Below are positions 17,512 through 22,210 of a stretch of 22,210 bases of DNA, in pieces. The position numbers and the translations under genes were made by a program. The notes beneath the pieces were generated by a model, which saw only the letters and a list, made by a program, of their open reading frames with translations, did no database searches and was not told the origin of the DNA. How positions within the stretch are numbered: the first letter of the stretch is position 1; every line of letters begins with the position of its first letter. Source of the DNA: a virus; IMG/VR virus record IMGVR_UViG_3300017763_000228, positions 1 through 22,210 of that record, one strand, 5' to 3'.

Positions 17512-17904
17512 ATGATAGGGCAATTAGAATTCGAGCTTGGTGCTCAAACAAACGAAAGTAATAAATACAAACGAGTAAGCGACCTGGATATGTATCAAAA
17601 GGTAGCAAAAACAACGGCAATATATCCGAGAGAACAGGCCATTATCTATCCGACATTAGGATTGACCGGTGAAGCAGGTGAAGTAGCCAACAAAGTAAAG
17701 AAGATAATAAGAGATGGCACAGATAAGAATAATGAGGATATGGTTCAAGAGATATCCGCTGAGATTGGCGATTGCCTTTGGTATATCGCTGTATTGGCTG
17801 ATGATATTGGTTTTAAGTTATCCGACATTGCAAACTCTAATTTAATTAAGTTAGAAAATCGTAAACAAAAAGGGACAATCCATGGTTCTGGCGACAACAG
17901 ATGA
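17512..17904 (+). CDS. mazG: MazG-like nucleotide pyrophosphohydrolase
   Basis: This 130-residue all-alpha enzyme belongs to the MazG superfamily, which hydrolyses (d)NTPs to monophosphates. The metal-binding helices are seen as LTGEAGEVANKVKK with Glu54 and Glu57 and as EISAEIGDCLWYIAVLADD with Glu84 and Asp87, the EXXE-EXXD signature. The end NLIKLENRKQKGTIHGSGDNR is typical of phage and bacterial single-domain members. Phage MazG proteins have been proposed to adjust nucleotide or ppGpp pools, though tested cyanophage enzymes prefer dGTP/dCTP. The start at 17512 has an excellent AGGGAGA site. The ATGA overlap joins it to the next gene. Confidence 0.93.
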   Translation: MIGQLEFELGAQTNESNKYKRVSDLDMYQKVAKTTAIYPREQAIIYPTLGLTGEAGEVANKVKKIIRDGTDKNNEDMVQEISAEIGDCLWYIAVLADDIGFKLSDIANSNLIKLENRKQKGTIHGSGDNR

Positions 17905-18665
17905 GAGTTGTACTAGTCACAGGTGGTTTTGACCCTATTCATTCAGGACATATAGAATACCTAAAATGCGCCAAAGCATTAGGTGATATATTAATTGTAG
18001 GTTTAAATTCAGATAATTGGTTGGCAAGAAAGAAAGGAAAAGCTTTCTTACCAATCTATGAAAGAGAACAGATACTACAAAACATAAATTGTGTTGATAA
18101 TGTGATATACTTTAATGATAATGACGACACAGCCATTGACGCCATCAAAAAAGTGCGAAGAATATGGCCTAAACCTCAAATCATATTTGCAAATGGTGGT
18201 GACCGTACCGAAGATAATATACCTGAACACGAAGCATTTAAAGATGACATTACAGTAAACTTTGAATACGGTGTTGGTGGTAATAAAACTAATTCATCAA
18301 GTACAATACTCAAAAAATGGTCTACCAATCACACGGAGAGACCATGGGGTTATTATAATGTACTACACAATGAGTTAGGTGTTGTAAAAACAAAAGAACT
18401 GGTAGTTATGCCTGGTGAAAGATTGTCTATGCAAAGACATGAAAATAGGTCAGAGCATTGGTTTATAGTATCAGGAGTTGCCACCGTCTATACATTAGAT
18501 AGCTCGTCTGATATAGAGTTAAATGGTGAGTATAAAAAGTTTGATAGATTGCATATTGAACGAGGAGAATGGCACCAATTATGTAATGAAGAACATGTAC
18601 CACTCAAAATTATCGAAATCCAGTATGGAACCAGCTGTATTGAAGACGATATTGAGAGAAAATAA
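17901..18665 (+). CDS. Nucleotidyltransferase-cupin fusion (sugar-nucleotide type)
   Basis: Two domains are fused in 254 residues. Residues 1-140 are a cytidylyltransferase-like fold: VTGGFDPIHSGHIEYL with the HxGH motif at 14-17, GLNSDNWLARKKG, and a late SSSTILKKW matching the SSTxx motif, as in the RfaE C-domain and glycerol-3-phosphate cytidylyltransferases. Residues 145-250 are a cupin of the mannose-6-phosphate isomerase type II group: ERPWGYYNVL, PGERLSMQRHENRSEHWFIVSG with His180, Glu185 and His186, and ERGEWHQL with His225. Together they suggest synthesis of an activated sugar or polyol, perhaps to modify cell envelope or virion glycans. Substrates are unknown. Its TAA lies within a terminator hairpin. 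Confidence 0.85.
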   Translation: MRVVLVTGGFDPIHSGHIEYLKCAKALGDILIVGLNSDNWLARKKGKAFLPIYEREQILQNINCVDNVIYFNDNDDTAIDAIKKVRRIWPKPQIIFANGGDRTEDNIPEHEAFKDDITVNFEYGVGGNKTNSSSTILKKWSTNHTERPWGYYNVLHNELGVVKTKELVVMPGERLSMQRHENRSEHWFIVSGVATVYTLDSSSDIELNGEYKKFDRLHIERGEWHQLCNEEHVPLKIIEIQYGTSCIEDDIERK

Positions 18666-18708: not shown

Positions 18709-18726
18709 GGTAACCCTTACCTGGTA
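18709..18726. promoter_or_regulatory. Operator-like element A upstream of the VWA gene
   Basis: GGTAA, CCC, then TTACCTGGTA gives three possible half-sites (GGTAA, TTACC, GGTA). The last ten bases are identical to the core of element B at 21101-21119, and both cores end exactly 35 nt before the -35 box of the promoter they precede. An A-rich tract fills the gap, as an UP-like or bent region might. Confidence 0.6.
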
Positions 18727-18761
18727 TAGAAAAAAAAATTAAAAAAAAAGCGCTAAAACGC

Positions 18762-18790
18762 TTGCCTTTTATGAAAAAGACCTGTAGGAT
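18762..18790 (+). promoter_or_regulatory. Sigma70-type promoter of the VWA gene
   Basis: TTGCCT (18762-18767) and TAGGAT (18785-18790) are 17 nt apart. Alone it is a moderate match, but it aligns with the much better promoter at 21150-21178, including the CCTGTA around the -10 and the upstream TTACCTGGTA. Transcription would start near 18797. Confidence 0.6.
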
Positions 18791-18822
18791 GGTCACATAG
18801 AATGAAAAAGGACACTAACACT

Positions 18823-21069
18823 ATGATAAATCTTGATGTAAAATCTAATCTAGCAAAACTAATTGCTACCGAAAACATTTCAATCCAACATAACAAAGTA
18901 CAGACTGCTTCTTTTGATGTAAAGAACAGAGTGCTTACTTTACCTATCTTTAAAGAAAAGTCTGGTGATGTATATGATATGTTAATCGCCCACGAATGTG
19001 CTCATGCATTATTCACACCTTATAAAGAATGGGAAAACATTGACAATGCCGAGTTAAGGTCTTATGTTAATGTGTTAGAAGATACAAGAATTGATTTACT
19101 TATTCAAGATAAGTTTCCTGGTGTTGTTAGAAACTATGAAAATGGTTTCGATATATTAGAAAAAAAAGATTTCTTTGGTCTGTGGGGTAAAGACTTAAAC
19201 AAAGACCTTATGATTATTGACAAGATTAATTTGAGGTCAAAATCATTACAAAGATTACCAATAGAATTTGACGCTGAAGGACAAGAATGGTTGACTAAAG
19301 TTGACGCTCTTAAAACCTTTGATGATGTTGTTGCTCTTGCTCAAGAGATGTTAGATTGGCAGAAAGAACAAGTTGAGCAAATGAAAAAATTGCCTGACTT
19401 CCATAAATTACCAATGGCACAAAATTATAATCAAGTTGATGAAGATGACTTTGATGATGAAGATGATAATGTTGGTTATGGTGCTGATGAGAATTCAGAT
19501 GAACAAGATGAAAAAAATGACTTCAATAATTTTGGTGACCAAAAAGCAGATGATGAGAAAGATACTCAACAATCTGGTCCTACTGAACAATCAGATGAGA
19601 AAAAAGAAGAAGAAAAAGACCAAGGTGCTCCTACTCAACACAGTAAAGGTGCTGACGGTGGTGTAAAATCAGATACACCTTTGAAAGCAATTACAGATGA
19701 GAGTTTCAAAGAAAAATCTCACGAACTATTAGATGAAAAATCTCATGGTTATATCTATGGTAATATGCCAGAACCAAATCTAAAATCTATTATCACTCAC
19801 AAAGAATTTCTTGATGACATGAAAAAATGTGCTAATGGTGGTAGTGAAAAGTATAATGAATGGTTAAAACAACATTTCAATAAATTCAAGAATGAAAACA
19901 AAAAAACTGTTTCATACCTTGTTAAAGAATTTGAGATGAAAAAAGCTGCAACTTCTTATGCTAGAGCAAGTCAAGACAAAACTGGTGTTATTGACCCATT
20001 AAAATTACCTAACTACAAATTTAGTGAAGACATATTTAAAAGAATGACAATCATACCTGATGGTAAGAACCACGGTTTTATTATGTTGCTTGATTGGTCT
20101 GGATCCATGAGTGATTGTCTAAAAAATACAATCGAACAATTATTAAATCTTGTTGAGTTTGTTAGAAAGGTAAACATACCTTTTGAAGTTTACTTCTTTA
20201 CTAGTGAAAGAAGACATTTTGACGATAATCAAGGTGAACCATCATTTAATCATAAGAGTGGTGATTGGATGTTTGATAACTTTAATCTAGTAAACTGTAT
20301 GTCACATAGACAAACAAAAAAACAATTAGATGAGACTATGATGTACATGTACCACATGGCAGAATATTACAATAGTAATTATGTTTATCATAGAGATTGG
20401 AATGATGATTTACAAATGGCTAGATATGATAGTTGGGGTATTCCTAGACAATACAATCTTGGTAATACACCACTTAATGAAGCATTAATATTTGCTGACA
20501 AGTTAGTACCAATGTTTATCAAAAAGTATGGTATTGAGAAGTTTACTTTTATTACACTTACAGATGGTGGTGCCAACTCTACAAGAGGTAAAATTAAAGG
20601 TCTTGAAAATGCCGATATGTATTCAGATGAGAATTACAGAAAGACACCTATCTACAAAATGGGTAAAAAGTCTCTTATCGGTAGTAGTTATAATCTAACA
20701 CCAAAAATACTAACTGCTATAAAACAAAAATACAATGCCAATGTTATTGGTTTCTATATTATCAAAAGAGTTAGAAAGTGGGATATCGAAAAGTATATTG
20801 ACGCTAAAGACTATTATGATAGAGAAAGAAAATATGTGGCTGCTAGAAAGCAGATGACTAAAGATAAAGCATTGGCTGTTAATGCTGATGGTTACAACAA
20901 GTTTTTTATCCTAGATGGTAAAAAAATGAAAGTTGAGAACTTTGATATGTCTGAAGCGAGTGTCAAGAAAGGTACTCCGTCAGAATTCAAAAGAATATTT
21001 GGTAAAGCAATGCAAGATAGATTGGTTTCCAGAGTTGTTCTTAACAAATTTATCGAAGAGGTTGCATAA
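18823..21069 (+). CDS. CobT-like VWA protein with N-terminal HExxH metallopeptidase motif
   Basis: This 748-residue protein has an N-terminal AHECAHALF motif (His57, Glu58, His61), a zinc-metallopeptidase signature, followed by LEDTRID (85-91), which could supply a third ligand. A strongly acidic low-complexity linker (about 205-275) leads to a C-terminal VWA domain with MIDAS sequence DWSGSMSD (424-431) and TLTDGG around Asp581. Acidic linker plus VWA is the layout of CobT, partner of the CobS AAA+ ATPase encoded next. The HExxH part suggests a protease or structural metal site rather than simple cobalt chelation. An in-frame ATG at 18802 exists, but AAAAAGGAC before the ATG at 18823 favours the latter; the next gene has the same arrangement. 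Confidence 0.85.
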   Translation: MINLDVKSNLAKLIATENISIQHNKVQTASFDVKNRVLTLPIFKEKSGDVYDMLIAHECAHALFTPYKEWENIDNAELRSYVNVLEDTRIDLLIQDKFPGVVRNYENGFDILEKKDFFGLWGKDLNKDLMIIDKINLRSKSLQRLPIEFDAEGQEWLTKVDALKTFDDVVALAQEMLDWQKEQVEQMKKLPDFHKLPMAQNYNQVDEDDFDDEDDNVGYGADENSDEQDEKNDFNNFGDQKADDEKDTQQSGPTEQSDEKKEEEKDQGAPTQHSKGADGGVKSDTPLKAITDESFKEKSHELLDEKSHGYIYGNMPEPNLKSIITHKEFLDDMKKCANGGSEKYNEWLKQHFNKFKNENKKTVSYLVKEFEMKKAATSYARASQDKTGVIDPLKLPNYKFSEDIFKRMTIIPDGKNHGFIMLLDWSGSMSDCLKNTIEQLLNLVEFVRKVNIPFEVYFFTSERRHFDDNQGEPSFNHKSGDWMFDNFNLVNCMSHRQTKKQLDETMMYMYHMAEYYNSNYVYHRDWNDDLQMARYDSWGIPRQYNLGNTPLNEALIFADKLVPMFIKKYGIEKFTFITLTDGGANSTRGKIKGLENADMYSDENYRKTPIYKMGKKSLIGSSYNLTPKILTAIKQKYNANVIGFYIIKRVRKWDIEKYIDAKDYYDRERKYVAARKQMTKDKALAVNADGYNKFFILDGKKMKVENFDMSEASVKKGTPSEFKRIFGKAMQDRLVSRVVLNKFIEEVA

Positions 21070-21100
21070 AAATGCCAATTAATTTGATAAAAAGTGGGAA

Positions 21101-21119
21101 TCCGTTACCTGGTAACGGA
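21101..21119. promoter_or_regulatory. Palindromic operator-like element B upstream of the CobS-like gene
   Basis: TCCGTTACCTGGTAACGGA is a perfect inverted repeat with 9-nt arms around a single central T. Its core TTACCTGGTA also occurs in element A at the same 35-nt distance from a -35 box. No T tract follows, so it is unlike a terminator; a dimeric DNA-binding protein site is the simplest reading. No other feature is seen in 21070-21215 apart from the promoter and leader. Confidence 0.68.
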
Positions 21120-21149
21120 AATAAATGTGAAAAAAAGTGTATTATATGG

Positions 21150-21178
21150 TTGCCAAATGCAAAAAACACCTGTATAAT
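21150..21178 (+). promoter_or_regulatory. Strong sigma70-type promoter of the CobS-like gene
   Basis: TTGCCA (21150-21155), 17 nt, and a perfect TATAAT (21173-21178). Transcription would start near 21185, giving a leader of about 30 nt to the preferred ATG. It makes the ATPase gene separately transcribed from the VWA gene despite their partnership. Confidence 0.85.
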
Positions 21179-21215
21179 ATACCTATATTAAATAATGAAA
21201 AAGGACAAAAACACT

Positions 21216-22210
21216 ATGCTAAATACAAAACAAAAAGAATTCATTAACTATGCCGTTAAAAAGTTTGGTTCAAATGAATTATCGACTTCTCAATTAAAAG
21301 AAGCAAATGCCAATTTTGGTTGCAAGTATGCGCCACAATGGTTAATCAAGAACTCTGACTACAAAGTTGGTAAGTCAATGTTCAAACTACCTACTGAAAA
21401 CGAAGTTGTGTCCGGTGAGGCTGAAAAGATTTTGCCTGCCGTTGAACCAGAAAAGACTAATACTGAAGCCGCTTATGTTGTTTCATCATTAGTTGGTAAC
21501 ATTATCCCTAAAAAGGATCCTGTGTTCGTTTCATTTGGTAACTATCCAGATTTAAAATCAATTGTTAAATCTAATATGTTCTATCCTGTATTCATTACAG
21601 GTCTGTCTGGTAACGGTAAGACTATGGGTGTGACCCAAGCATGTGCCGAGGCAAAGAAAGAAATGATTAGGGTTAACATTACAATCGAAACAGATGAAGA
21701 TGACCTTTTAGGTGGTTACAGACTTAAAGATGGTCAAACTGTTTGGCAAAATGGTCCTGTTATTGAGGCGATGGAGAGAGGTGCTATGTTGCTTCTTGAC
21801 GAAATCGACCTTGCTTCTAACAAGATTATGTGTTTACAACCGATACTTGAAGGTTCAGGTGTCTATGTTAAAAAGATTAACAAGTTTGTAAAACCTGCCA
21901 ATGGTTTCAATGTTGTTGCTACTGCCAATACAAAAGGTCAAGGTAGTGATGACGGTAAATTTATTGGTACCAATGTTCTTAACGAGGCGTTCCTTGAAAG
22001 GTTCCCTATTACTTTTGAACAGAAATATCCTACTGCTACTATTGAGGAGAAAATCCTTATCAATACACTAGGTGCTTCTACAAAAGATGATAAAGAATTT
22101 TGTAAGAAGTTGGTAACATGGGCTGATGTAATCAGAAAAACCTACTTTGACGGTGGTGTTGATGAGATTATATCAACTAGAAGATTAGTCCACATCATTC
22201 AGGCGTTCAA
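21216..22210 (+). CDS. cobS: CobS-like AAA+ ATPase, N-terminal 331 residues
   Basis: The frame runs off the window end, so the C-terminus is missing. It encodes a MoxR/CobS-type AAA+ ATPase: a 100-residue N-terminal region with no clear motif, then Walker A GLSGNGKT (129-136), a DDLLGGYRL segment (162-170), Walker B MLLLDEID (191-198), sensor 1 VVATANT (233-239) and an arginine-finger-like FLERFP (259-264). Bacterial CobS works with CobT in aerobic cobalt insertion for B12, and cobS-like genes are well known in marine T4-like phages. The neighbouring VWA protein is the likely partner. The ATG at 21216 follows AAAAAGGAC; an in-frame ATG at 21195 would add seven residues. Confidence 0.9.
   Translation, partial: MLNTKQKEFINYAVKKFGSNELSTSQLKEANANFGCKYAPQWLIKNSDYKVGKSMFKLPTENEVVSGEAEKILPAVEPEKTNTEAAYVVSSLVGNIIPKKDPVFVSFGNYPDLKSIVKSNMFYPVFITGLSGNGKTMGVTQACAEAKKEMIRVNITIETDEDDLLGGYRLKDGQTVWQNGPVIEAMERGAMLLLDEIDLASNKIMCLQPILEGSGVYVKKINKFVKPANGFNVVATANTKGQGSDDGKFIGTNVLNEAFLERFPITFEQKYPTATIEEKILINTLGASTKDDKEFCKKLVTWADVIRKTYFDGGVDEIISTRRLVHIIQAF

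Follow-up and report, generated by a model that had tools for sequence, protein, structure and literature searches.

A helically phased upstream element at the cobT and cobS promoters of Mosig-related T4-like phages, a probable activator site

Analysis of virus record IMGVR_UViG_3300017763_000228 (22,210 nt, hereafter the window), which among cultured phages is closest to Pelagibacter phage Mosig EXVC030M, revealed a short, partly palindromic element upstream of the predicted promoters of a cobT-like gene and of cobS. We observed this element, its conservation at both genes in a clade of relatives, a constraint on its phase relative to the promoter, additional sites in cultured phages, and an absence of regulatory copies in presumed host genomes. 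With moderate confidence, we propose that a sequence-specific DNA-binding protein, probably phage-encoded, binds the element and serves as a class-I-type activator of the sigma70 promoters of a small regulon in the Mosig-related T4-like clade.

A search of both strands of the window found the core of the element, TTACCTGGTA, in exactly two copies (Table 1), the two described in the initial annotation; when one mismatch was allowed, seven matches, a number that no shuffle reached, were found against 1.45 expected. Recomputation reproduced the promoter architecture that had been proposed, with a TTGCC(T/A) -35 hexamer, a 17-nt spacer, and a CCTGTA merging into the -10 hexamer at both sites. The two control regions had also been called duplicates, in agreement with an ungapped identity of 61 over 110 nt, compared with a mean of 35 and a maximum of 51 in shuffles. 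The shared leader motif ATGAAAAAGGAC was located at 18802 and 21195, inside the AAAGGA leaders of both genes; the most plausible reading of this motif is a Shine-Dalgarno leader, and its ATG is probably part of the ribosome-binding leader. The ATG at 18802 assigned to the cobT-like gene by the open reading frame (ORF) caller falls within this leader. Because relatives keep AAAGGA...ACACTATG, the likely start codons are those at 18823 and 21216.

Comparison of the cobT and cobS loci from viral contigs and cultured phages revealed a clade in which the same element (AACCSTTACCWGGYAACG) precedes both the cobT-like gene (site 1, S1) and cobS (site 2, S2). Its consensus is GGAAACC(G/C)TTACC(T/A)GG(T/C)AACGAAAAAAA, in which CC and GG are almost invariant, and matches in the relatives' loci numbered 67 in 89 kb of intergenic DNA versus 8 in 717 kb of genic DNA. 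The perfect 19-nt palindrome noted at the second site (TCCGTTACC-T-GGTAACGGA) is present, but it is peculiar to the window phage and near-identical relatives; the conserved core consists of the left half AACCSTTACCWGG and a weaker right half, YAACG, and perfect symmetry is therefore unnecessary. The loss of element and spacing from close relatives carrying both genes, which had been named as evidence against a dedicated regulator, was largely not seen, most clade members keeping the element in phase. The element was not seen before the same genes in cyanophages P-SSM4, P-TIM40 and Syn19, and among the matches listed for the pattern TTACCTGGTA-N20-50-TTGCC in the whole collection, most came from unrelated contigs. 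Coding constraint from a small ORF over site 2 was rejected, since the reading frame through the motif differs among phages. In Mosig this ORF is annotated as Mosig_00019 (MT647606 11427-11540), a 37-aa 'hypothetical protein' that spans the control region of cobS; it probably does not represent a gene.

The element closely follows the stop codon of the preceding gene, which raised the possibility that the palindrome works as RNA, as a terminator or 3'-end hairpin of that gene. At site 1 of contigs L146/L147 (AAACCCTTGTCCTATAAGGGTTTTTTG in L146) and also of L189, a textbook intrinsic terminator does stand ahead of the cobT promoter where the element would otherwise lie. However, no U-tract follows the palindrome, a terminator scan misses it, and a terminator has no need of helical phase with the next promoter. 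Compared with shuffles, folding was no better at S1 (z 0.18) and weakly better at S2 (z -1.65), and Rfam searches of the sites at gathering thresholds matched nothing. The window sites thus show weak folds in place of the G+C-rich hairpin and U-tract of an intrinsic terminator, and we regard a role as RNA as very improbable. Separately, an imperfect inverted repeat, GCTGTGCGA-NN-TGACGCAGC, recurs within the stretch from the upstream stop codon to the element in Mosig, HTVC008M, L142 and L146 (site 1).

The distance between element and -35 hexamer was determined by seeking the promoter at any distance from 0 to 90 nt 3' of the element. Among 42 distinct element-plus-promoter sequences, the gap was 15/16 in 13, 24–26 in 6 and 34/35 in 23, the only values occurring being 15, 16, 24, 25, 26, 34 and 35; the classes are separated by steps of about one helical turn, a pattern first visible in a set of 23 sequences. 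The 'exactly 35 nt' of the initial annotation is accordingly right for both window sites and a special case among the relatives. In 42/42 sequences the element lies 5' of the -35 hexamer without overlapping it, in one copy per promoter and with a gap of 15–35 nt, as expected of a class-I-type site. Mapping of the spacing on a tree of 97 CobS proteins revealed about nine independent changes of class, at least five at S2 and four at S1, all of them in phase. At S2 there are separate groups with gaps of 26, 16 and 15, L278/L298 have 35/34, and the sister contigs L141 and L142 have 15 and 34, respectively; at S1 the gap switched to 24 (L150/L151), 25 (L133/L134), 15 (L132) and 25 (L321). Simulations with uniform gaps and a fitted period were equally phased in 0 of 20,000 runs for nine changes and in 148 of 20,000 for only five changes, statistics that depend on the number of independent indels because the sites share descent. 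Gaps, simulation and tree all place the permitted positions whole helical turns apart; such a constraint is expected of a DNA-bound protein touching the polymerase or the polymerase's upstream DNA.

Half-site remnants exhibited the same phase: among 50 distinct promoters of relatives, all lacking the CCWGG core, the right-half sequence YAACG occurred 13 times and was in phase in 13/13 cases, against 0.9 expected and a maximum of 4 by shuffling, many of the 13 being kin by descent. We also ran a gap-blind position weight matrix (PWM) over the complete Mosig genome (MT647606), in which S2 (33.9), S1 (28.9) and a third site (21.7) stood above the best remaining match (13.3) and the best shuffle (12.1). 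The third site, at 124785 (-), lies 34 nt before a TTGCTT-N17-TATATT promoter heading a small-gene cluster; the inverted repeat GCTGTGCGA-NN-TGACGCAGC is present there too. HTVC008M (KC465899), whose cobT-like protein has 33% identity to that of the window, contained a sole strong match (23.9 at 133451), again with a gap of 34 to the promoter of a small-gene cluster. The search for further copies before -35 boxes suggested in the initial annotation thus yielded phased ones in both cultured phages. A dedicated regulator acting from about -70, as proposed there, is supported by these two promoters as well as by an element that is kept at both genes, scarce in other intergenic DNA and phased through many indels. 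The spacing could instead reflect descent only, a neutral duplicated region having retained few ancestral spacing states whose phasing is a coincidence of few indels; the sequences do share kinship, and when five changes are counted, 0.7% of simulations are as phased by chance. This explanation appears highly unlikely to us, as the CobS tree requires about nine switches, the half-site remnants in lineages without the core are all in phase, and the extra sites of Mosig and HTVC008M have a gap of 34 despite unrelated gene contexts.

In the activator model, a protein would sit on the element, centred about -55, -65 or -75 from the predicted start, on the helix face of the promoter and across A-rich, UP-element-like DNA, and would touch RNA polymerase, probably at the alpha C-terminal domain. 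This contact would boost initiation at weak promoters (TTGCC -35, TAGGAT -10) of a small regulon comprising cobT, cobS and, in Mosig, the small-gene cluster, and would give a regulated early or middle gene class to phages without motA/asiA. We infer protein binding, activation over repression because the element is outside the core promoter, and a phage-encoded rather than host-encoded regulator, two options that the initial annotation had left side by side, because the presumed host genomes are without regulatory copies. The palindromic half sites would suit a repressor dimer no less than an activator, and the promoters seem functional unaided, having TATAAT or TAGGAT and a 17-nt spacer; the element could then be an operator at which a phage or host repressor, through looping or interference with UP-element contact, silences cobT, cobS and the small-gene cluster. 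Repressor operators, however, usually overlap the -35/-10 region or occur in pairs, whereas the element is never over the core promoter (centre -55 to -75) and has only one copy per promoter, which makes a repressor improbable.

Phased upstream sites for host proteins are common in phages, and the element might serve a host transcription factor or nucleoid protein borrowed by the phage, as lambda and Mu do with IHF, the phasing arising from its bend or contact. The phage promoters are of the host sigma70 type, and a bending protein would be the host's, since HU/IHF-family proteins were not found in Mosig, HTVC008M or ten contigs. The IHF consensus WATCAAN4TTR was matched in some lineages without the core; however, it was not enriched either in the CCWGG class (2/27 at no more than one mismatch vs about 14% expected) or in the other class (10/56 vs about 17% expected), and an IHF site at the element was rejected because the consensus did not exceed shuffles. 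The host order was deduced from genome size, A+T content, rhodopsin and group size: it is large, consists of alphaproteobacteria with small, A+T-rich genomes and rhodopsin, and presumably represents Pelagibacterales. A sample of 297 of its genomes contained 29 motif matches. Of 20 inspected, 19 fell within long open reading frames, for the most part a GltD-like 'LPGNDL' stretch, and one adjoins an rRNA gene; in a class-wide sample of 289 alphaproteobacteria, the motif exhibited no overall excess over a reversed-pattern control. The motif clusters inspected from the class-wide sample, in G195/G291 and G234, were rejected as a host regulon, being coding repeats or contig-end repeats. Copies in the presumed hosts are chance occurrences, almost all within genes. 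With matches that are mostly coding and, class-wide, no more frequent overall than the reversed pattern, a host operator is unlikely. A host factor that has different sites in its own genome may act at the element; overall, we consider a borrowed host protein a rather unlikely explanation.

Several points weigh against a phage-encoded activator. The host order is presumed, and the promoters are predictions from sequence. In the 30 kb of the Mosig early region that Pfam scans covered (minus strand, 107.7-137.7 kb), neither helix-turn-helix nor Ogr-type proteins nor any other obvious DNA-binding regulator appeared. The S1 element is degenerate or absent in close relatives L135, L137-139, L144, L145 and L155, as is the S2 element in L138 and L144. 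At 9.6-9.7 bp, the fitted period is below 10.5, and the simulation figures hinge on the independent changes counted and on a phase picked after seeing the data.

The features of the window, together with LexA-type boxes in relatives, are listed in Table 1. The vWA assignment of the cobT-like protein is a putative one drawn from sequence reading and family names; Pfam returned zero matches for this protein of the window. Between mazG and the cobT promoter, the window contains a fused cytidylyltransferase-like and cupin-like gene (17901-18665), whereas in Mosig mazG is immediately 5' of the cobT promoter without this gene between them.

Table 1 Features of the two control regions in the window and LexA-type boxes in related phages
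Feature	Position	Strand	Basis or remark
Site 1 element AACCCTTACCTGGTATAG (core TTACCTGGTA 18717-18726)	18712..18729	+	Sequence; PWM score 32.5; kept before cobT-like gene in relatives
Site 1 spacer, element to -35: 35 nt, A-rich, UP-element-like	18727..18761	+	Length class 34/35
Site 1 -35 hexamer TTGCCT	18762..18767	+	Sequence, recomputed
Site 1 -10 hexamer TAGGAT; 17-nt spacer, CCTG directly 5'	18785..18790	+	Sequence
cobT-like vWA 'peptidase' gene, phrog_459	18823..21069	+	Start inferred from conservation
Site 2 element, 19-nt palindrome TCCGTTACCTGGTAACGGA (core TTACCTGGTA 21105-21114)	21101..21119	+	PWM score 29.5; kept before cobS in relatives
Site 2 spacer, element to -35: 35 nt	21115..21149	+	Sequence
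Site 2 -35 hexamer TTGCCA	21150..21155	+	Sequence
Site 2 -10 hexamer TATAAT; 17-nt spacer	21173..21178	+	Sequence
cobS, MoxR-type AAA+ ATPase, phrog_249, Pfam AAA_5	21216..22210	+	Truncated at window end; whole in near-identical contig L004
LexA-type box GAACN7GAAC	L155:2519-2533	+	
LexA-type box GAACN7GAAC	L162:2539	-	
LexA-type box GAACN7GAAC	L133:2523		
LexA-type boxes GAACN7GAAC	Mosig (MT647606) 13971, 90683, 117858		
LexA-type boxes GAACN7GAAC	HTVC008M (KC465899) 87259, 133406, 134997		

In most relatives a GAACN7GAAC box, in either orientation, lies ahead of the cobT promoter and after the stop codon of the preceding gene; the box is not in the window, and in HTVC008M and Mosig such boxes occur at other promoters too. 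The Caulobacter SOS box is GTTCN7GTTC (PMC9578287). LexA was encoded in 49/58 genomes of the presumed host order above the cut-off, and in 4/4 lexA genes examined there GAACTT(A/T)(A/T)ATAGAAC lies directly 5' of lexA. In a published transcriptome, lexA and recA of HTCC1062 are reported to be induced by another pelagiphage, HTVC027P (PMC12753301). The resemblance of these boxes suggests that phage promoters are tied to the host SOS response. A broader and doubtful extension is that some marine T4-like phages replaced the missing MotA/AsiA middle system by a new phased-site phage activator, joined in most relatives with a host LexA operator at the same promoter, so that the cobT promoter would read the DNA-damage state of the host.

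Two further observations concern non-coding DNA of these phages. A reverse-oriented, asymmetric relative of the element (CGTTGAAATATAAAGG, and CGTTGAAAAATAAGGG, the reverse of AACCCTTATTTTTCAACG) is located before sigma70 promoters at sites 1 and 2 of HTVC008M (L210) and in the 90683 region of Mosig. A non-coding stretch of about 450 nt between S21 and IbpA-like genes (L004:13906-14356, L005:13947-14331) contains strongly conserved blocks (TTATTCGGGCTCATTGGTCTTCGTAG...GATAAGTTAGTATAATGAGG in both contigs) and is possibly a structured RNA; it matched nothing in Rfam at the gathering threshold, and HTVC008M has a similar non-coding stretch between S21 and a heat-shock gene.

Pelagimyophages are without motA, asiA, alt, modA and modB, and their middle and late promoters eluded published prediction attempts (PMC7029224); for cyanophages, the literature gives no settled account of middle control either (PMC2984593). 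The element, which may be part of what replaces the missing middle system, offers a direct handle on the timing of early and middle genes in SAR11 T4-like phages. It has three allowed spacings and occurs in two phages cultured on HTCC1062, Mosig and HTVC008M; it predicts promoters as well as the effects of half-turn versus full-turn insertions, and it could serve as DNA bait for the regulator. A full-text literature search for the palindrome returned unrelated subjects only.

The arrangement resembles T4 MotA/AsiA in that the phage would direct the control of replication-module genes in a T4-like phage; however, the MotA box, at about -30, takes the place of the -35 hexamer, and the promoters described here retain their -35, with the element 15-35 nt farther 5'. 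A T4 MotA middle promoter was rejected on account of this intact -35 and of the absence of motA/asiA, taken from the literature (PMC7029224). Like IHF-assisted lambda pL and Mu Pe, the promoters have a phased upstream site and A-rich DNA up to the promoter, but here the IHF consensus is unenriched. P2 Ogr and P4 Delta are phage-encoded activators that act via the alpha subunit from a dyad near -55, much as the putative phage-encoded activator of the element would; their site, in contrast, is TGT-N12-ACA at late genes of temperate phages, and the scan of 30 kb on the minus strand of Mosig revealed no Ogr/Delta zinc-finger protein. CRP and similar activators act on class I promoters from sites at -61.5, -71.5 and -82.5, and as with CRP, a single symmetric site precedes an intact sigma70 promoter at positions interchangeable by one helical turn. 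The centre of the element (about -55/-65/-75) is, however, roughly half a turn off the face used by CRP, its sequence is unrelated to TGTGA-N6-TCACA, and its protein is putative. Phased upstream activator sites are a known device; judged by the literature searched, the element described here appears new, as do its regulon and its occurrence in T4-like phages.

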